From Chlorobiaceae bacterium (GTDB lineage: Bacteria > Bacteroidota > Chlorobiia > Chlorobiales > Chlorobiaceae), in contig JAAXWS010000021.1 in the NCBI GenBank assembly GCA_013334865.1, positions 1-34,025 on the forward strand: a DNA stretch of 34,025 nt. Reading direction: 5' to 3'. Positions within the stretch are counted from its first letter, which is position 1. Each line of letters opens with the position of its first letter. Made by a program: the position numbers and the translations under genes. The notes beneath the pieces were generated by a model. That model did no database searches. It saw only the letters and a program-made list of their open reading frames with translations, and was not told the origin of the DNA. Shown in pieces: positions 1,360 through 10,359 of the stretch.

Positions 1360-1669
1360 ATTGCGATGTGAATTTACGAATAAATTCGAATTATCATCGC
1401 CTCTTTTTAAAAAAATATTCCTGTTCCATATCCATTTGTCAGGTTGCGCGGCAGCCGGCAGGCTGAGCTTTAATCAATGGCTCATTCGGGCTGATGGTCT
1501 GTCATTCCCGGACTCTTTATCCTGTTGTCGGTGAACGAAGCGTGCCGTAGATCCCCTTGATGCTGGTATGGGAGAAGGGCGCTCGCCCTGCACCTGATCG
1601 GCGTGCCGGGCCCGTGCGATGGGCCGGGATTGCAGGATGGGACTCGATAATCGAAATGGGGGGAGACTT
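1360..1669. other. Gene-free stretch upstream of the DUF2061 gene
   Basis: No gene seen. The left part is AT-rich (1360-1430) and would contain the tRNA-Gln promoter on the minus strand. The right part is GC-rich with short inverted repeats (GGGCG/CGCCC near 1576-1587). A frame opening at 1619 only extends the DUF2061 gene upstream past its ribosome site. Confidence 0.4.
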
Positions 1670-1891
1670 ATGGCACGGACCATCAAGCTTCGCAGATCAC
1701 TGGTCAAGGCGTTGACCTACCGCATCATGATCATGTGCCTCGATTTTGTAACCATCTACCTGTTCACCGGAACAGCACGCATCGCATTCGGCTTCATGAT
1801 CCTGAGCAACATCTACACGACCGTCGGCTATTTTGTCCATGAAAGGGCCTGGAGCCGCATTCAGTGGGGGATAGGCGAGGGGGACGGGTGA
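1670..1891 (+). CDS. DUF2061 family small membrane protein
   Basis: This 73-aa protein begins MARTIKLRRSLVKALTYR and carries the DUF2061 pattern: a basic N-terminus with an SLVKALTYR stretch, two hydrophobic segments (about residues 17-33 and 36-53), and the closing YFVHERAWSRIQWG that matches the family's Y.HER.W..I.WG end. Function is unknown; it is an inner-membrane protein by composition. The start at 1670 is preferred over the upstream ATG at 1619 because a GGGGGAGA ribosome site lies just ahead of it and family members start shortly before the SLVKA stretch. It converges with the response regulator gene, with 70 bases between stops. Confidence 0.85.
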   Translation: MARTIKLRRSLVKALTYRIMIMCLDFVTIYLFTGTARIAFGFMILSNIYTTVGYFVHERAWSRIQWGIGEGDG

Positions 1892-1961: not shown

Positions 1962-2675
1962 TCATTCGATGACGAAGGGAGCCGAAAAGCAGTAACCAGC
2001 GCCGTGGAGGGTTTTGATCGGGATCCTCTGGTCGAGTTCCTCTTTTTTCCGGCGGAGACGGTGGACCAGGGCGTCGAGGGCCCGGTTGCCCAGGTCGTCG
2101 TTCTCATAATCGAGCGAACGGAGCAGTTCAGACCTTTCGATCAGGGTACCCGGTTTGCCGGCAAGCAGTTCGAGCAGGTCGAACTCTTTGGAAGTCAGGG
2201 AGATCCGCTCTCCTTCAGGGGTGGACAGGGTAGCGTCGCTCCGGTGCAGGACCCATGCCTTTCCTTCTGCCGTGTGCGGTGCCGGCGGTGCCGGGCTTGC
2301 CGGGTCGATGCGGCTGAGGATGCTTGATATCGATGCCGTCAGCTCCGCGAAGTCGATCGGCTTGACCAGGTAGAGGTCAGCCCCCGAGCGGTATGCGGTG
2401 ACCTTGCTTTCGAGGGAGGACTGGGCGGTGAGCATGACAATCCGCATATCCGTGTTTTTCCTGATGTATCCGGCAAGCACATTGCCGTCCTGGTCGGGAA
2501 GCCCGATATCCACGACGGCGAGCAGGAAGCGCTCGCCCCTTGCCAGTGTCTGGTAGAAGTCGAGCGCGCTGGAGACTCCGGTGACGTCGAGTCCTGCCAG
2601 TTCGAGGTATTCGACCATGCTTTCACGAAAATCACGGTCGTCTTCGATCACGATAATTCTTTTCTCTTCTGCCAT
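1962..2675 (-). CDS. OmpR/PhoB-family response regulator
   Basis: A 237-aa two-domain regulator. Residues 5-120 are the receiver: acidic pair in VIEDDRDF, phospho-acceptor Asp in VVDIGLPD, Thr in MLTAQSS and Lys in VKPIDF. Residues about 140-235 form the winged-helix DNA-binding domain (ISLTSKEFDLLELLAGKPGTLIERSELL, then ALDALVHRLRRKKEE and the IKTLHGAGYCF wing). It should be phosphorylated by the adjacent histidine kinase, whose stop lies about 90 bases upstream; the targets are unknown. A further in-frame ATG lies five codons upstream (2690); 2675 is chosen because receiver domains normally begin a few residues before the first strand. A 7-bp inverted repeat (2702-2708 with 2719-2725) sits in the junction. 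Confidence 0.95.
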   Translation of the reverse strand: MAEEKRIIVIEDDRDFRESMVEYLELAGLDVTGVSSALDFYQTLARGERFLLAVVDIGLPDQDGNVLAGYIRKNTDMRIVMLTAQSSLESKVTAYRSGADLYLVKPIDFAELTASISSILSRIDPASPAPPAPHTAEGKAWVLHRSDATLSTPEGERISLTSKEFDLLELLAGKPGTLIERSELLRSLDYENDDLGNRALDALVHRLRRKKEELDQRIPIKTLHGAGYCFSAPFVIE

Positions 2676-2765
2676 AGTGGCCTGCAACATGAACGGTTTG
2701 GTTTCCGGGGCCTCGTGTCCGGAAATGGAGGTATTCAGTAAATGAATGAAAAAAGCAGGCTGCCG

Positions 2766-5700
2766 TCAAATGCCGTTCCCGTTTTGGCGGGGATTCTTGA
2801 GCAGCGGCAGCCTGATGACGGCCTCCACACCAGAGGAGGTCCCTTTCAGGGTCACCTGGCCATGGTGCTGTTCGACAATGTTCTTGACGAGCCACAGGCC
2901 GATGCCCGCGCCTCCGGTGTCGGCCGCATTGCTGCCGCGACGGTATTTTTCGAACAGTTCCTTGCCTTCGATGTCGGTGAAGCCTTTGCCCTTGTTCCTG
3001 ATGGTGATGATTGCGCTGCCGTCCTCCAGGTGGCGCTCGATGTCGATGGCCGTTCCCGATGGTGAGTATTTCCGCGCATTGTCGAGGAGGTTGAAGATGG
3101 CCATTTTCAACTGTGCCGCTTCCCCGAAGGTCATCGCTTCGGCAAGGTCTCCATGCGAACGGATATGCCGTTCCGGCCACATCGAGAGGACTGCCTCCAC
3201 CTGCGAAGTGATTGCCGTTTCGATCATGAACGCTTCGGCTTGCGTGGACTTGGGGGATTCAAGGAGCCGGCTTTCCTGGATGGAGACCTCCATGACTTCG
3301 ACCAGCCGGTCGATGGCCCGTTTGATTTTGGCGGTTTCCCTTTCGTTGGAATAGTTGCCGCCCTTGTGCTTCAGGTCGATGAGGTCGAGGTTGCCCCTGA
3401 TGATGGCCAGCGGCGTGCGGTATTCATGCGATATCATGCTCAGGAACCGGTGCAGCCGTTCCACCTCCTGGCGGAGCTGCTCGGTCCGGTCTGAGACGAC
3501 CTTTTCAAGCTGGGAAATGTTCGCCTGCTGGAGCTCCTGGACCGTGATGTCCGTCATCATGACCAGCATGCGGGTCTGGTTGTTCATGGTGATGAACTCC
3601 GCAGAGAGCAGGACAATGACGATCGCCCCCGTCTTGCTGCGCAGTTCGAACGGCCGGTTGAGTATCCTTCCCTGCTCGTGGAGCGCGGTGGCGATCTGCG
3701 CGTGGTCTTCCGGATGCGGGTAAATGCCGAGCTCCTGCACCCTGCGGCCGACCACCTCCTCCCTCGTAAAGTCGAACAGCTTGAGCCACGACCCGTTCAC
3801 GTCGAAGACGATGCCGGCATCAGGATCTTCGATGCAGATGGCGATAGGTGAGAAGTCGAAGATGTTCCGGAACTTCTGCTCGTTTTCCTTGAGGAGCAGT
3901 TCGGTTCTCTTCCGTTCGGTGATGTCCTGGACGATGCCGTACAGATGCCTGGCTTTGCCATGCATATCCGAATCGAACGCCCCGAACACCCAGATCCAGC
4001 GCACCTTTCCGTCAGCCGTGCAGATCCTGCACTCGAACGTGTAGTTTTCTGCGTTTTCAAATGCCTGCATCATCTGGCTTTCGACGCGCTGACGGTCTTC
4101 CTTGACGATATGGCTTAAAAAAACCTCCAGGGTCCATGTGGCGGTATTGTCGTGATACCCGAATATCCGGGCATGTTCGAGGGATCGATATGCCTTGTGG
4201 TCGGCAAGATCAAGATCCCAGACGCCGATGTTGCTTTTCGACAGGACGAAATTGAGCTTCTTCTGGCTTTTCCGAAGCTCTTCGTCGGCAAGCCGTCGCT
4301 CGGTGATGTCCATGACGGTCCCAAGGTAGCAACCGGTCTGCCCGTCGGTTCCGGGCAGCGGCACCCCGTGGCACATCAGCCAGCGGATGGCGCCGTCAGG
4401 ATGTGCGACTCGGTACTCGACCGTAAACTCATCATCGTGGCTGGCCGCCGACATCACCTGGGCAAAGGTAAGCTCCCGGTCTTCGGCATGCACGTTGCTT
4501 TCACAGAGGCGATGCGAGGGCTTGACGCTGAAGGGCTCGAGGCCGTAGAGGCCCCAGATCTGGTCCGACCAGGTAACCCTGTCGGATTTCATGTCCCATT
4601 CCCAGATGCCGGCTTTTGTGGCTTCGAGCGCGAAGTTGAACCGCAGCCGGCTCTCGTTGAGCGCAAGCTCGGCGAGCTTCTTCTCGGTGATGTCGATGAT
4701 CGTTCCGATATACCGTATCGTCCTGCCCTGTTCGTCGATCACCGGCTTGCCCCGGGACATGAGCCAGTGCACGGAGTTGTCCTGAAGGCATACCCGGTAC
4801 TCGATATTCACGTCTGCCTGCCCGGCCACCGCATCTGTGACGGCCCCGATCGTCGGCTCGAGGTCGTCGGGGTGGATGGTGCTGGTCCAGAGCTCGAAAG
4901 AGGGGGAGAGCCCTTCCTTTCGATCGATGCCGTACAGTGGCCAGGTCTCATCCGACCAGACGTTTTCGTTCGTTGTGGTGTCCCACTCCCACACGCCTGC
5001 TCTTGCGGCTTCGAGAGCCTGCCCGAGACGGCGTTTGCTTTCGATGAGCGCAAGTTCGATCTGCTTCCTCTCGGTGATGTCGATGACGGCCCCGATGTAG
5101 CGTTTCAGCTTGCCGTTACCGTCGTACATCGGCATGCCGCGCGAGGTGAGCCAGTGGATCGAACCGTCAGGATGGCAGGTGCGGTACTCGACCGATGCGG
5201 CATTGCTGTCGCGAACCGCGTCCTTGATGATCCGGGAGACCATGTCACGGTCTTCAGGGTGGATGGTGTCGACGCAGAGCTGGTGGTTCAGGGCGGATGA
5301 GCCGGGCTTGAGTCCGTAGAGCGTCCAGACCTGTTCCGACCAGTTCAGCTGGTCGGTGTCGATATTCCACTCCCAGATGCCGGTATGCGCCGCATCGAGG
5401 GCATAGCCGTACCTGAGCTTGCTTTCGAGGAGCTCCTGCTCCAGCAGCTTCAGCTCGGTGATGTCGATGACCGAGCCGATGTACCGTACGATGGTCCCGT
5501 CCTGTTCGAACAGGGGTTTGCCGCGCGACATCAGCCAGTGGATAGATCCGTCAGGATGGCAGATCCGGTATTCGACATTCATCTCCAGCCCGTTGCTGGT
5601 TGCGGCATTGACCGCATGGATCGCTTTATCCCGATCGTCGGGGTGGACGATCTCCACCCAGCGGCTGAACGATAGCGCCTGATCTCCTTTTTCGATGCCT

Positions 5701-6983
5701 AACAGCTGCCAGAGCGTATCGGACCAGATGACGATGTTTGTCTTGAGGTCGCGCTCCCAGACGCCGACACGCGATGCCCCCAGGGCCTGGTCCATCATCT
5801 TCTTGTTTTTCTGCAGCTCGAGCTCGAGCTCCTTGCGTTCGGTGATGTCGATCACCGTTCCGACATAGCGGACCGGCCTGCCGGGTTCATCGGCCGAAGG
5901 CCTGCCTCTGGAGAGCAGCCAGCGGACAGCGCCATCGCGGAGGCGGACCCGGTATTCGAATTCAATGTTTCTCATCTGCTCGGCCGCCAGCCGGTTGGCT
6001 TTGACGCTCCGGCCGTGATCCTCAGGATGAACGACCTGTTCCCAGAGCTTCAACGAAGGGGGGCCCTGGGTTTTGTCAAGTCCGTAAAGCTGCCAGACTT
6101 CATCGCTCCAGTCGACCCCATCGGTGTCCGGGTACCACTCCCAGATGCCCGCATGTGATGCCTGCAGCGCCATGGTGAGTTTCTCCCGGTAGCTCGCGAG
6201 GTCCTGCTCGATTTTTTTCCGTTCGGTGATGTCGAAGCCGATGGAGACCAGGCACGGCTCACCGTCGATGAAAAGCCGTTTCGAGCGTGTCATGAGCCAT
6301 GCAGACTCAGGTTTCCCTCCTGGGTGTATCTCCATCTCGCAGTCGCTCTCGTTTCCGGAGCGCATGGCTTCAAGGAAAATTTCCTTGAGCGGGTCGATGT
6401 CTTTCCTGGTGAAAAAATCTTCAGGATCCACCTGCGGGCGGCCCGATTCGCCGGAGGTGCAAAGCAGCTCCTCGGCATACCTGTTCGACGCCATCAGCGA
6501 AAGGTTCGAATCGAAGATGACCGCCGAGCAGGGGATTGCGTCCAGCATGGTCGTCTTGAGTTCACGCTCTTTCTGCAGCTGCCGGTCGCGGCGTTTCTGC
6601 CCGGAAACGTCCTCGACGATCATGAAAAAGCTCGAGATCTCTCCGGCAGCGGACCTGACCGGGTTGATGGAGACTTTCCAGACATCCGTGTCGTCTTCGA
6701 ACACCATGCTGGTTCCCGACGCAAGGACGAGGGCGCATTTCTCCTTCAGGTAGTTTGCCAGGACCGGGACGCCGAGCACATTAATGATGAGGTCGTAGAT
6801 GTTCCTGCCCGTGCAGATCTCCGGAGCCATGCCGAACCGCTCCGAGAAGCGGTTGTTGATATTCAGGATCAGGCCTTCAGGATGCATGATGAGTGCCGCC
6901 TCGGGGAGCGACTCGAGCAGGGCCTGCATCGCCATTTCGACGGTTTCGCCGGTTTTCCGGGAAGGGTTGATGGACTTGGGCAT
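2766..6983 (-). CDS. Soluble sensor histidine kinase with nine PAS domains
   Basis: 1405 residues with no transmembrane segment or signal peptide, so it senses a cytoplasmic signal. By eye there are nine PAS/PAC units at about residues 17-135, 145-265, 270-395, 397-523, 524-651, 652-780, 781-907, 908-1035 and 1036-1155. Units 3-7 are close copies (WEW....W S(D/E)..W.LYG start; E(Y/F)R...DG..(H/R)WL..RG.P and (Y)(I/L/V)G(T/A/S)V(I/M)DITE end). The kinase core follows: HisKA with phospho-acceptor His1186 in MISHEYRTPL, and a HATPase with N box (FNLLDNARKYSP) and G boxes (GGAGIGLWLVKNIVEQ). It is followed by its regulator gene. It starts 288 bases after the (bacterio)chlorophyll synthase gene on the same strand, so light, redox or oxygen sensing for pigment genes is possible but unproven. 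Start ATG lacks a clear Shine-Dalgarno. Confidence 0.96.
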   Translation of the reverse strand: MPKSINPSRKTGETVEMAMQALLESLPEAALIMHPEGLILNINNRFSERFGMAPEICTGRNIYDLIINVLGVPVLANYLKEKCALVLASGTSMVFEDDTDVWKVSINPVRSAAGEISSFFMIVEDVSGQKRRDRQLQKERELKTTMLDAIPCSAVIFDSNLSLMASNRYAEELLCTSGESGRPQVDPEDFFTRKDIDPLKEIFLEAMRSGNESDCEMEIHPGGKPESAWLMTRSKRLFIDGEPCLVSIGFDITERKKIEQDLASYREKLTMALQASHAGIWEWYPDTDGVDWSDEVWQLYGLDKTQGPPSLKLWEQVVHPEDHGRSVKANRLAAEQMRNIEFEYRVRLRDGAVRWLLSRGRPSADEPGRPVRYVGTVIDITERKELELELQKNKKMMDQALGASRVGVWERDLKTNIVIWSDTLWQLLGIEKGDQALSFSRWVEIVHPDDRDKAIHAVNAATSNGLEMNVEYRICHPDGSIHWLMSRGKPLFEQDGTIVRYIGSVIDITELKLLEQELLESKLRYGYALDAAHTGIWEWNIDTDQLNWSEQVWTLYGLKPGSSALNHQLCVDTIHPEDRDMVSRIIKDAVRDSNAASVEYRTCHPDGSIHWLTSRGMPMYDGNGKLKRYIGAVIDITERKQIELALIESKRRLGQALEAARAGVWEWDTTTNENVWSDETWPLYGIDRKEGLSPSFELWTSTIHPDDLEPTIGAVTDAVAGQADVNIEYRVCLQDNSVHWLMSRGKPVIDEQGRTIRYIGTIIDITEKKLAELALNESRLRFNFALEATKAGIWEWDMKSDRVTWSDQIWGLYGLEPFSVKPSHRLCESNVHAEDRELTFAQVMSAASHDDEFTVEYRVAHPDGAIRWLMCHGVPLPGTDGQTGCYLGTVMDITERRLADEELRKSQKKLNFVLSKSNIGVWDLDLADHKAYRSLEHARIFGYHDNTATWTLEVFLSHIVKEDRQRVESQMMQAFENAENYTFECRICTADGKVRWIWVFGAFDSDMHGKARHLYGIVQDITERKRTELLLKENEQKFRNIFDFSPIAICIEDPDAGIVFDVNGSWLKLFDFTREEVVGRRVQELGIYPHPEDHAQIATALHEQGRILNRPFELRSKTGAIVIVLLSAEFITMNNQTRMLVMMTDITVQELQQANISQLEKVVSDRTEQLRQEVERLHRFLSMISHEYRTPLAIIRGNLDLIDLKHKGGNYSNERETAKIKRAIDRLVEVMEVSIQESRLLESPKSTQAEAFMIETAITSQVEAVLSMWPERHIRSHGDLAEAMTFGEAAQLKMAIFNLLDNARKYSPSGTAIDIERHLEDGSAIITIRNKGKGFTDIEGKELFEKYRRGSNAADTGGAGIGLWLVKNIVEQHHGQVTLKGTSSGVEAVIRLPLLKNPRQNGNGI
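3916..6233 (-). repeat. 384-bp periodic repeat encoding tandem PAS units
   Basis: The 11-mer TCGGTGATGTC (plus strand; it encodes the D-I-T-E or D-I-T-x end of a PAC motif on the minus strand) starts at 3916, 4300, 4684, 5071, 5455, 5839 and 6223. Spacing is 384 bases five times and 387 once, i.e. 128 or 129 codons. The units have diverged at DNA level between these anchors but keep their length. Confidence 0.9.
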
Positions 6984-7271: not shown

Positions 7272-8294
7272 TCAGCTGTGCATGTACTTCATGCCGATGA
7301 GTGCGGCCACGATCAGCTGGTTGATCAGGAACAGGATGTTGTTGATCAGCGAAAACCTCAGGAATGCGTTGTGCTCGTGGATGTCGCTCTTGCCGATGGC
7401 GTTGCCGAAGCCGTCGTTGACGGCGCTCTTCATGAAAGAGACGCCGTTCTGGGGATCCCTGACCAGCCTGATCTCGACGACCAGGATGACCAGGAGGCTC
7501 AGCAGGATGAACCATGACAGGTAGCTGAACCCCCAGCTCCAGGCGAGCCAGGCGAAGACGCCGAAGACGAGGTCCACGATGAGGAACGCCACCAGGAAGG
7601 TGTTCCTGGGCCCGATCATCACCGCGAGGGACTTCATGCCGGCCTGGGCGTCCCCCTCGCGGGACTTGAAATCGTTCATGATGATTAGCGCGAGTCCCAT
7701 GAAGAAATTGAGCCCGGCCATCCAGAGCACCTCCGGACGGAGGTCGCTGAACAGGGCGTTCGCGGAAAGCCAGGGGATGACGCCGTAGGAGATGCCGACC
7801 GCCGGACCGGAAAGCAGGATGTTCTTCTTGAGCTTGAACGGGGGCGCCGAATAGACGAATCCAAGGAAGAGGCCGGTAAAAAACGTGCTCAGGATGACCA
7901 AGCCCCGCGTGCCTCCGATGTTGATGCTCAGCATGGCGCCCAGTGCGAGGGCGACGGCGAGCACGATCGACCAGTTCCAGAGCGCCTCGGATTTGGTGAG
8001 CCGGCCTGAAGGAATAGGGCGAGTAGGTTCGTTGACCATGTCGAGCTCGAGGTCGAAGTAGTCGTTCACCGACTGGCTGAAACCGGTGCCGAGCGGGCCG
8101 TAGATCAGGAACAGGGTAAAGAGCATCAGGTAGTCGTGCACGGTCGGCTGCATCATCCCGGAAGCCATGACGCCGCCGGTAAGGCAGGGATAGACGCTGA
8201 TCCAGGTGACGGGGTCGAGGATCTCGATATGCGCCTTGAGCTTGTCGACGAAGGTGCGGGATGGCGCGGTTGCGGCTACGGCTTCCATTTCCAT
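7272..8294 (-). CDS. bchG: (Bacterio)chlorophyll synthase, UbiA prenyltransferase family (BchG/ChlG type)
   Basis: A 340-aa polytopic inner-membrane enzyme that esterifies (bacterio)chlorophyllide with geranylgeranyl or phytyl diphosphate. Both Asp-rich Mg-diphosphate sites are visible: NDYFDLELD at residues 77-85 followed by NEPTRPIPSG, which is diagnostic of the chlorophyll synthase branch, and NDFKSREGD at 207-215. About nine hydrophobic segments lie between. Green sulfur bacteria carry three such synthases (BchG for BChl a, ChlG for Chl a, BchK for BChl c/d/e). The sequence looks like the BchG/ChlG pair rather than BchK, but I cannot separate those two by eye, so the symbol is provisional. 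It lies 31 bases after the radical SAM gene and is probably co-transcribed with it and csmE. Confidence 0.92.
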   Translation of the reverse strand: MEMEAVAATAPSRTFVDKLKAHIEILDPVTWISVYPCLTGGVMASGMMQPTVHDYLMLFTLFLIYGPLGTGFSQSVNDYFDLELDMVNEPTRPIPSGRLTKSEALWNWSIVLAVALALGAMLSINIGGTRGLVILSTFFTGLFLGFVYSAPPFKLKKNILLSGPAVGISYGVIPWLSANALFSDLRPEVLWMAGLNFFMGLALIIMNDFKSREGDAQAGMKSLAVMIGPRNTFLVAFLIVDLVFGVFAWLAWSWGFSYLSWFILLSLLVILVVEIRLVRDPQNGVSFMKSAVNDGFGNAIGKSDIHEHNAFLRFSLINNILFLINQLIVAALIGMKYMHS

Positions 8295-8325: not shown

Positions 8326-9741
8326 TCACAGGAATGCTTCGGGTTTCAGTCTGGCGGCGAACCGGTTCATCGCGAGATTGGCCATCCAGACCCAGTTGAG
8401 CGGCTTGCCCTGCATCCGCTTCAGGATGGCGCCTCCCTTGTAGACTTCGCGGTGCAGCTTGATGAAGTTCTCGATCAGCTTGCCTCCAGCCATCTTTTTC
8501 GGTTCGTACATCAGGTGGAACGTATCGTACCTGTCCCAGTCGAAGTGGCGGATACGCGGCTTCATCTCCTCGAAGAACGGGGTGCCGGGGAAGGGGGTGA
8601 CCAGCGAGAAGACCGGGAACTCGATCCGGTTCTTCATGATGAAGTCGTAGGTCGACTGGAAGCTCTTCTCGTCGTCGTCGTCGAAGCCGAACATGAAGTA
8701 GCCCTGGATGGCGATGCCGTTCCGGTGCAGGTTGCCCACCGCCGTCTCGTAGTTCTGCAGGCGGTTGGAGCCCTTGTTCATGCTTTTGAGCACATCGGGG
8801 TTGAGCGATTCGAAACCGATGCTCATCAGGTCGCACCCCGACCGGCCGGCGACTTCGGCGACTTCGGGCTTGTGCAGGAAGTTCATCGAGATGTTGGCGT
8901 TCCAGCGGACGCCCAGCTTTCCCATGGCATCGAGCAGGTCGGTGAAGTAGTGCGGCCTGAAGCTGATGTTGTCGTCCATGAAGGAGAAGGTCACCTCGCG
9001 CTTGCCGAGGCGCTCCTGATGGTAGCGCATTTCATCGAGCACGAGGTCGAGTTCCCGGTACCGGTAGCTTTTGCCGTAGACGACCGGCGTAGTGCAGAAG
9101 CTGCAGCCTACCGGGCACCCTTTGGTGGCGAGAATGGGAATGCGCGCCGCATAGCGCTTCGCATTGCGTGACTGCAGGGCGTATCCGAAATCCGGCCGCT
9201 GCATCGCCGTCATGGGCTGGAGGTTCCCCGATCGGTACAGCCCCTTCATGGTTCCCCGGATGACGTCGGACGCGAGTTCCTGCCAGACCGACTCGATCTC
9301 CCCGTAGACCACGCTCGTGCAGTGGCTGGCAGCTTCGTCGTGCAGCATCGTCGGGTGGACGCCTCCGAAAAGCACGATCCTGTTCTGGGCGAGCGCCCGG
9401 TCCCCTATGCTGTATGCCTTCGTCGCATTGAGTGTACGGGAGGTGACGGCAACAACGTCGAACCCCGAGAAGTCTTCGGGAACGACGTCTCCGATTCGCT
9501 CATCGATCATGGTGATGTCGAAGATCCGGCCTGCCAGCGTCGCCACCATGACCAGGTTCAGCGGCATGCTGACCCTTCCGGAGTCGACGGTCATGTTCGT
9601 CACGCTTTTCGGCTGGATCAGCAACCATTTTTTCCGGCGTGTCTGGCTCGAGGCAAGCCTGGCAAGCGAGCCGTCGGAATCGAGGTTATGATGAAGGGCG
9701 GGGACTTCGTGGCTCATAGGGGCGAACGGCCTTGTCTTCAC
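8326..9741 (-). CDS. B12-binding domain radical SAM enzyme (BchE/BchQ/BchR-like class B)
   Basis: 471 aa. Residues about 38-170 resemble a cobalamin-binding Rossmann domain (LLIQPKS start, FGGVHPTMLHDEA, YGEIES); the DxHxxG motif is absent, as in many class B radical SAM methylases. Residues about 195-420 are the radical SAM barrel with CxxxCxxC at Cys209, Cys213 and Cys216 (KGCPVGCSFC) and a GFDDDD..F glycine-rich segment. Enzymes of this class methylate or cyclise unreactive carbons; in green sulfur bacteria they include BchE and the chlorin methylases BchQ (C-8) and BchR (C-12). Its place between csmE and a (bacterio)chlorophyll synthase supports a pigment role; the exact reaction is open. 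The GTG start at 9741 overlaps the csmE stop (GTGA); an ATG eight codons in (9717) is an alternative. Confidence 0.9.
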   Translation of the reverse strand: MKTRPFAPMSHEVPALHHNLDSDGSLARLASSQTRRKKWLLIQPKSVTNMTVDSGRVSMPLNLVMVATLAGRIFDITMIDERIGDVVPEDFSGFDVVAVTSRTLNATKAYSIGDRALAQNRIVLFGGVHPTMLHDEAASHCTSVVYGEIESVWQELASDVIRGTMKGLYRSGNLQPMTAMQRPDFGYALQSRNAKRYAARIPILATKGCPVGCSFCTTPVVYGKSYRYRELDLVLDEMRYHQERLGKREVTFSFMDDNISFRPHYFTDLLDAMGKLGVRWNANISMNFLHKPEVAEVAGRSGCDLMSIGFESLNPDVLKSMNKGSNRLQNYETAVGNLHRNGIAIQGYFMFGFDDDDEKSFQSTYDFIMKNRIEFPVFSLVTPFPGTPFFEEMKPRIRHFDWDRYDTFHLMYEPKKMAGGKLIENFIKLHREVYKGGAILKRMQGKPLNWVWMANLAMNRFAARLKPEAFL

Positions 9742-9992
9742 TTCGCGAAACGGTGCACAATCTCCTTGCTCGGGGAGGCATAGCCCGATACGTCAGGAGA
9801 GCTTCCGCGCAGCCTTCCGGTCATTTCGCCGCCATAAAGGTACGGATAGGCGTTTGCGCCAAGCCGTTTGGTGCATTTGCCGACGTTTTCGAGATAATCG
9901 CCAACAACCCACCAGTGTCCGTCGATGAAGACTTCGAGTAATCGCCCGTAGGCCTCGGCGCCCTGGACAAAAGCTCCGTTCATGCTGTTCAT
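9738..9992 (-). CDS. csmE: Chlorosome envelope protein, CsmA/CsmE family
   Basis: 84 aa, matching the chlorosome baseplate family. The GRLLEVFIDGHWWVVGDYLENVGK stretch corresponds to GRIFEV..EGHW..VG...(D/E)S.GK in CsmA, with His26 at the place of CsmA His25, the proposed BChl a ligand. The C-terminal RGSSPDVSGYA.P(S/T)KE(I/V)...FAK is the tail that is removed from CsmA on maturation. Divergence from CsmA (GHWWVVGD, a Cys at residue 40, YPYLYGG) fits the paralogue CsmE, so the symbol is likely but rests on memory of the family. It acts in the monolayer envelope of the chlorosome. It starts one base after the stop of the 121-aa ORF and overlaps the radical SAM gene start by four bases, so translation is probably coupled. 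Confidence 0.9.
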   Translation of the reverse strand: MNSMNGAFVQGAEAYGRLLEVFIDGHWWVVGDYLENVGKCTKRLGANAYPYLYGGEMTGRLRGSSPDVSGYASPSKEIVHRFAK

Positions 9993-9993
9993 T

Positions 9994-10359
9994 TCAGATG
10001 GGGTGTCGGTTTGTCGAGATGGGTTTTCCCTGGCCGGAGGTCCTTGACTGGACCCGGTTCCCCCACAGCGTGAATTCGCCGTTCAGGAACGGGTTGTCCT
10101 CCTCGTCGAGCTCATCCTGGATGCCATTGTCCGTTGCTGTCGGCGCGGGGACGGGTTCACTCGTGATTTGAGGGAGGGTTCTGCTTTCGGTCGGGATGCC
10201 GGTCACGAATCCGCATCGGCCCGATGGTGTTGCCGGGATGGCGTCGTCGATGTCTGCCGGTTCTGCCGGCCGGGGCTCCAAGGTCAACCTGACAGGGATT
10301 TTCGAGCCCGAAACCGGTTTCGAACTCCTTTTTCTTAGCCAGGAGAAGGGCATAATCAC
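9994..10359 (-). CDS. Unknown 121-aa protein, translationally coupled to csmE
   Basis: I do not recognise this protein. It has a basic N-terminus (FSWLRKRSSKP), a Pro/Ala/Thr-rich middle (EPRPAEPADIDDAIPATPSG; EPVPAPTATDN), an acidic patch (DELDEEDNPF) and no hydrophobic segment. Its stop is one base before the csmE ATG, an arrangement that favours a real coupled gene over a chance frame. The start is either the GTG at 10359 or the ATG two codons later (10353), which has an AGAAG-like site ahead of it. By position it may be a chlorosome- or pigment-associated soluble protein, but nothing in its sequence proves that. It could also be a chance frame within a leader. Confidence 0.5.
   Translation of the reverse strand: MIMPFSWLRKRSSKPVSGSKIPVRLTLEPRPAEPADIDDAIPATPSGRCGFVTGIPTESRTLPQITSEPVPAPTATDNGIQDELDEEDNPFLNGEFTLWGNRVQSRTSGQGKPISTNRHPI

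Follow-up and report, generated by a model that had tools for sequence, protein, structure and literature searches.

A histidine kinase with a long and very regular series of PAS domains lies beside pigment genes in the genome of a Chlorobiaceae bacterium. This raises the questions of what the kinase controls and whether its spacing has a meaning of its own. The window, i.e., the whole stretch of DNA that was analyzed, is 34,025 nt in length (contig JAAXWS010000021.1 of assembly GCA_013334865.1). The kinase has a linear array of nine PAS units and is apparently a cytoplasmic sensor, and its host is a Chlorobaculum-type green sulfur bacterium. The reading favored here, with a probability of roughly 0.68, is that the nine-PAS sensor relays to an OmpR-type response regulator encoded next to it, and that the pair most likely controls a module of accessory chlorosome genes located upstream. 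The array itself follows a published rule and is a known kind of sensor. The clustering of the kinase with second copies of bchK and bchR and with a csmE-like copy is the less expected point and may be new.

Domain structure of the nine-PAS kinase

The kinase gene (positions 2766–6983, minus strand) is a single open reading frame (ORF) for 1405 aa with Pfam matches to PAS_3 (7e-112), HATPase_c (1.9e-18) and HisKA (1.7e-7). PAS_3 matches in seven stretches with 366 bits against a cut-off of 25.6, and units 3–8 each pass the cut-off singly. Segmentation from the N-terminus, with all units on the minus strand, gives unit 1 at positions 6600–6983 (residues 1–128) and unit 2 at 6222–6599 (residues 129–254, 126 residues), both more diverged in type than the middle units. 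The PAS_3-type units follow: unit 3 (5838–6221), unit 4 (5454–5837) and unit 5 (5070–5453), each of 128 residues, unit 6 (4683–5069, 129 residues), unit 7 (4299–4682, 128 residues) and the more diverged unit 8 (3915–4298, 128 residues). Unit 9 (3540–3914, 125 residues) is of the PAS_9/PAS_8 type and adjoins the kinase core. The core consists of HisKA (3288–3452, minus strand, residues 1178–1232), with the phospho-acceptor motif SHEYRTP, and HATPase_c (2802–3119, minus strand, residues 1289–1394), with the N box NLLDNARKYSP and the G box GAGIGLWLV. Thus the features of a PAS_3-type tandem PAS sensor histidine kinase are all present, namely PAS_3 domains, the HisKA His, the N and G boxes and fixed linkers. 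Averaged over 19 residues, the hydropathy does not exceed 1.29, which fits the soluble protein proposed in an earlier reading of this DNA (the original prediction).

Seven exact copies of an 11-mer, TCGGTGATGTC, are found at positions 3916, 4300, 4684, 5071, 5455, 5839 and 6223, exactly as the original prediction had listed them, with spacings of 384, 384, 387, 384, 384 and 384 bp. When up to two mismatches are allowed there are 46 matches, compared with 11.8 expected from shuffled sequences. A separate repeat search also recovers DNA repeat families with a 384/387-bp spacing and 60–88% identity. Its reverse complement, GACATCACCGA, codes for Asp-Ile-Thr-Glu (DITE) on the minus strand of the gene, and a conserved DITE closes each PAS/PAC unit. 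A DNA-level function of the 11-mer, or a 4-base repeat, was set aside because the DITE coding explains it fully. In two more units the anchor has diverged, to DVSG at residue 125 (unit 1) and to DITV at residue 1145; therefore there are nine PAS units in total, and the predicted count is borne out by Pfam and the anchors together. Along the protein the unit spacings are 126, 128, 128, 128, 129, 128, 128 and 125 residues. The period of 128 codons (once 129) that had been proposed thus holds for the inner units but not for the outer spacings of 126 and 125. The extra residue of unit 6 is in a PAS-core loop and is common to most positional orthologues.

Accessory chlorosome genes and the response regulator

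The presumed partner of the kinase is an OmpR/PhoB-type response regulator encoded 75 bp downstream (positions 1962–2690, minus strand; Response_reg 2.1e-19, Trans_reg_C 6.5e-16), and the adjacency of the two genes is conserved among relatives. On the other side, after a gap of 288 bp, is a bacteriochlorophyll (BChl) c synthase gene of the UbiA family (7272–8294, minus strand). It scores 584 bits with the NCBIfam model NF009058 (cut-off 494), and so the pigment gene that had been proposed to precede the kinase on the same strand is confirmed. The other bchK copy of this genome is on contig 22 (G000:C22:9266-10255). Eight canonical BchK1 sequences that were sampled form one clade (0.949) and the copy next to the kinase falls outside it, as does the BchK2 of green sulfur bacteria; therefore this gene is designated bchK2, with a putative role in the esterification of BChlide c, d or e.

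Next upstream is a radical-SAM (B12/radical-SAM) gene similar to the C-12(1) methyltransferase genes, here termed bchR2 (8326–9741, minus strand; Radical_SAM 4.9e-19). A second copy, 80% identical, is on contig 26 (G000:C26:82404). In genome G019, which we take to be Chlorobaculum tepidum, bchR2 has a 75% match at position 1,241,882, presumably CT1320 (bchR), since it sits where that gene is expected. A 31% match in the same genome sits where CT1777 (bchQ) is expected. The map position and these gene numbers make a bchR copy the most likely identity of the radical-SAM gene. An assignment as bciD is not favored, because the genome has the 80% identical second copy and because matches of 70–80% are found in 8/8 genomes searched, likely including C. 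tepidum, while bciD has been reported from brown species only (PMC3613366). The last gene of the module encodes a csmE-like chlorosome envelope protein (9738–9992, minus strand; PF02043 3.8e-34), and its stop codon overlaps the GTG start of bchR2 by 4 bases. Its product has 76% identity to the CsmE candidate of G019 compared with 48% to the CsmA candidate, and there are three further PF02043 genes in the genome.

Conservation of the gene cluster in the family

Searches with the N-terminal part and with the kinase core covered 86 genomes of this family; the sequences of 40 loci were read. Two bchK genes are present in 33/86 genomes. All 33 have the kinase family, and in 31 it adjoins the second bchK. 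Among the 53 genomes without a second bchK, the kinase family is absent from 42 and present in 11. Because of the relatedness of the genomes, the Fisher p value of 1.2e-14 describes this table only. The complete order csmE-like, bchR2, bchK2, kinase, regulator is found in 18 of the loci read. In G018, one of the two genomes in which kinase and second bchK are not side by side, the csmE-like gene and bchK2 lie at 44567-45559 of 45621, close to the end of their contig. The kinase is near the start of another contig, which is consistent with an assembly break. The kinase family forms one clade (support 0.84), and within it is a second subgroup (L251-L261), in which four or five units are detected and which shares the gene order. 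The constant presence of the kinase-regulator family in the sampled genomes with a second bchK, nearly always next to it and often together with extra copies of bchR and a csmE-like gene, makes this pair a concrete candidate for regulation of pigment composition.

A different explanation is that this is an ordinary multi-PAS kinase in a neighborhood of historical origin, which is carried along with the pigment genes but senses and controls something unrelated, e.g., redox or sulfide. Multi-PAS kinases are abundant in genomes of the family, the kinase is present in the 11 genomes that have no second bchK, and some loci have the kinase and regulator only. However, adjacency in 31/33 genomes, across two genera and with the divergent L251-L261 subgroup included, is more than drift usually leaves. 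This explanation is considered unlikely, although it is the strongest of the alternatives.

Several observations weigh against control of the chlorosome genes by the nine-PAS sensor and its regulator. The same 11 genomes show that the kinase is not bound to bchK2, and G001, G005, G014 and G020 have a second kinase of the family away from the module. The 288-bp gap may give the kinase a promoter of its own, apart from bchK2. In addition, no cofactor signature was found in the kinase: the LOV flavin motif GxNCRFLQ is absent from the protein on reading, and in units 3–8, compared with FixL by eye, no His was seen at the place of the proximal His on the F helix, the FixL-type haem ligand. Any signal proposed is therefore a guess, including the light, redox or oxygen of the original prediction. 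The ligands of PAS_3 domains are hard to predict from sequence.

Three loci without a second bchK (L084, L086 and L097) retain the csmE-like gene, and two of the three also have bchR2. In G043 the bchK2 frame (L081:3540-3953) is only 138 aa in length, an apparent remnant, while bchR2, kinase and regulator remain. The kinase genes in G032 and G034 (L076, L052, L068) are interrupted close to the kinase core by a stop codon, which suggests decay or a sequencing error.

Proposed mechanism

Control of the accessory chlorosome genes by the nine-PAS sensor could operate as follows. A helix of fixed length would join each PAS core to the next and place all units in the same helical phase. Signals from the PAS domains would travel along the chain of the presumably dimeric protein as coiled-coil motions to HisKA. 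The kinase core would then autophosphorylate and pass the phosphoryl group to the adjacent OmpR-type regulator, which would act on the csmE-like gene, bchR2 and bchK2 upstream. In this way some condition, with low light as the first guess, would make the cell switch on second copies of the C-12 methyltransferase, the bacteriochlorophyll c/d/e synthase and the envelope protein. The guess comes from C. tepidum, whose adaptation to low light requires bchQ and bchR according to the title of a 2007 paper cited in PMC3613366. A broader proposal is put forward tentatively: the five genes may form a conserved module whose two-component system is dedicated to shifting the cell to a different set of bacteriochlorophylls, and species may adjust the number of PAS units by gaining or losing them whole.

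Linker length and the spacing rule

Counted from the DIT Asp up to the Trp of the following unit, the linker is 30 residues in 221/222 junctions of 41 related Chlorobiaceae kinases. This set includes L105, L107 and L108, which match in the N-terminal part only and are paralogues, not orthologues; the picture is unchanged by them. The lone exception is a 42-residue "linker" in L093, where the added residues are an IGIGIG expansion that opens the next PAS core and is outside the linker. Approximately 12 residues long, this IGIGIGIG expansion belongs to the beginning of the last PAS core, and nowhere else in the set does a length change come close to a linker. Length changes among orthologues fall in PAS-core loops while the linkers stay constant. 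The orthologue spacings are mostly 128 residues; a spacing of 125 represents the last unit, and those of 127, 129 and 135 represent changes in PAS-core length. The PAS_3 core is 98 residues in 165/262 units measured in the orthologue set. The units of 135 residues in L080, L081, L094 and L096 had been candidates for linker insertions of +7, but alignment puts the extra residues inside a PAS core of another type; therefore these units are not evidence for a heptad.

Structure modeling of units 4–6 as a monomer shows single helices at residues 134–156 and 262–284 of the model, each of which begins directly behind DIT and runs to the following PAS core. Each linker is predicted as one helix of 23 residues. 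The model has a mean predicted local distance difference test (pLDDT) value of 91.5. Its predicted template modeling (pTM) score is 0.64, and the relative placement of the units is thus uncertain. The closest solved structures to the model are tandem-PAS sensors, namely LOV-PAS-HK, FixL, DosP and PpsR.

The exact 384-bp period might represent a special adaptation, i.e., a rotational register that was selected in this gene, and the absence of a linker indel in 221/222 junctions, although the PAS cores vary, agrees with this. Unrelated arrays behave in the same way, however. Control arrays from Chlorobiaceae paralogues, other Bacteroidota, deltaproteobacteria, alphaproteobacteria, cyanobacteria and others have a linker of 30 residues in 64/68 junctions, of 37 (= 30+7) in three and of 26 in one. 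These arrays are a convenience sample, and the profile used to find them had been trained on the orthologues, so that similar junctions may be over-represented. Their period ranges from 121 to 142 residues despite the near-constant linker. The fixed linker is therefore a general property of such PAS-PAS junctions, and tandem PAS domains with regular spacing and heptad-periodic linkers have already been published (PMC6798134). Common descent of the PAS_3 core is another reason for the constant 128. A special period for this gene is therefore highly improbable and is rejected on the basis of the control arrays. As the register rule is general, it says nothing specific about the nine-PAS kinase; in the register argument of the original prediction the invariance of the linker is supported, but not as a particular feature of this protein. 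The array is a clean data set for the known rule, with the linker fixed at 30 or 37 residues, the PAS cores drifting and the units gained or lost whole.

Age of the duplications

The proteins related to the kinase range from 823 to 1566 aa and have 2 to 9 units as detected by the unit profile. The profile misses unit 1 of the window protein, and the true counts are higher. A comparison of copy number in orthologues, which had been suggested as a check, shows that the counts differ by whole units. In L069, the closest orthologue, nothing corresponds to units 3 and 4, and in L070 nothing corresponds to unit 8; in both the flanking units keep their order. The simplest reading of these sequences is that in-frame gain or loss of whole units represents the recent change.

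In a tree of all units, those of the window protein cluster with the units at the same position in other species. The best cross-species matches are 59–83% for units 4–9 and 61–65% for units 2–3, compared with 40–48% among the PAS_3 sister units 3–7, and no pair of units within any protein of the related set is more than 63% identical. Since the units are closer to their positional orthologues than to each other, and none exceeds 63%, growth of the array is ancestral. The growth by duplication that was proposed at first is thus ancient, and the description of units 3–7 as "close paralogues" is too strong. The two outcomes that had been named as contrary to the prediction, unrelated PAS types or variable unit lengths in orthologues, do not hold for these middle units. 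A recent tandem repeat without functional register, formed in the DNA by unequal crossing-over or slippage, would account for the direct repeats of 60–88% identity that are detectable in the DNA. It is the least probable explanation of all and is ruled out by the unit tree and the identities given above.

Comparison with known systems

The kinase resembles tandem-PAS kinases (TIGR00229 sensory_box, with DITERK-type PAC ends) in PAS type, DIT ends, helical linkers and HisKA/HATPase_c. It differs from them in its unusually large number of units (nine) and in the adjoining accessory chlorosome genes. FixL, the Brucella LOV-HK and the engineered YF1/YHF are coiled-coil relays from PAS or LOV units to a kinase. 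They share the heptad linker rule (PMC6798134), and the folds of FixL (tandem PAS) and LOV-PAS-HK are among the nearest solved ones. Unlike these proteins, which have one or two units, the window kinase has nine, with no LOV Cys motif and no FixL-type haem ligand seen by eye.

BchK2 is described in two reviews (PMC7242693 and PMC9066304) as a second BChl c synthase that is present in some green sulfur bacteria only. Its role is called unknown in the former but is credited with BChl e/f esterification in the latter. As far as the two reviews were searched, they make no mention of the neighboring kinase, regulator, bchR copy or csmE-like gene. Likewise, nothing on a kinase beside bchK, or on the clustering with these second copies, was found in the accessible papers. 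An analogy, and only that, is provided by the low-light and far-red light photoacclimation (LoLiP/FaRLiP) clusters of cyanobacteria, which link alternative antenna genes to a dedicated kinase sensor (LcyA in LoLiP, PMC12214013). Those clusters differ in phylum, antenna and sensor, theirs having a bilin GAF domain in place of a PAS array.

Other features of the locus

Just upstream of the csmE-like gene is an ORF of 121 aa (positions 9994-10359, minus strand) with no Pfam match. It ends in F-S/T-LWGNR, a motif that is found at the same place in L069, L070, L071, L074, L083, L092, L097 and L275. In the second kinase subgroup the upstream frame ends near RCGFATG instead, a motif that is also present inside the 121-aa ORF of the window. 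A conserved direct repeat similar to TTACATTTATTACATT precedes the csmE-like gene in L251, L253, L256, L260 and L261 and could be a promoter or regulator site. Beyond the response regulator, on the opposite strand, is a gene for a small DUF2061 membrane protein (positions 1619-1888, plus strand).

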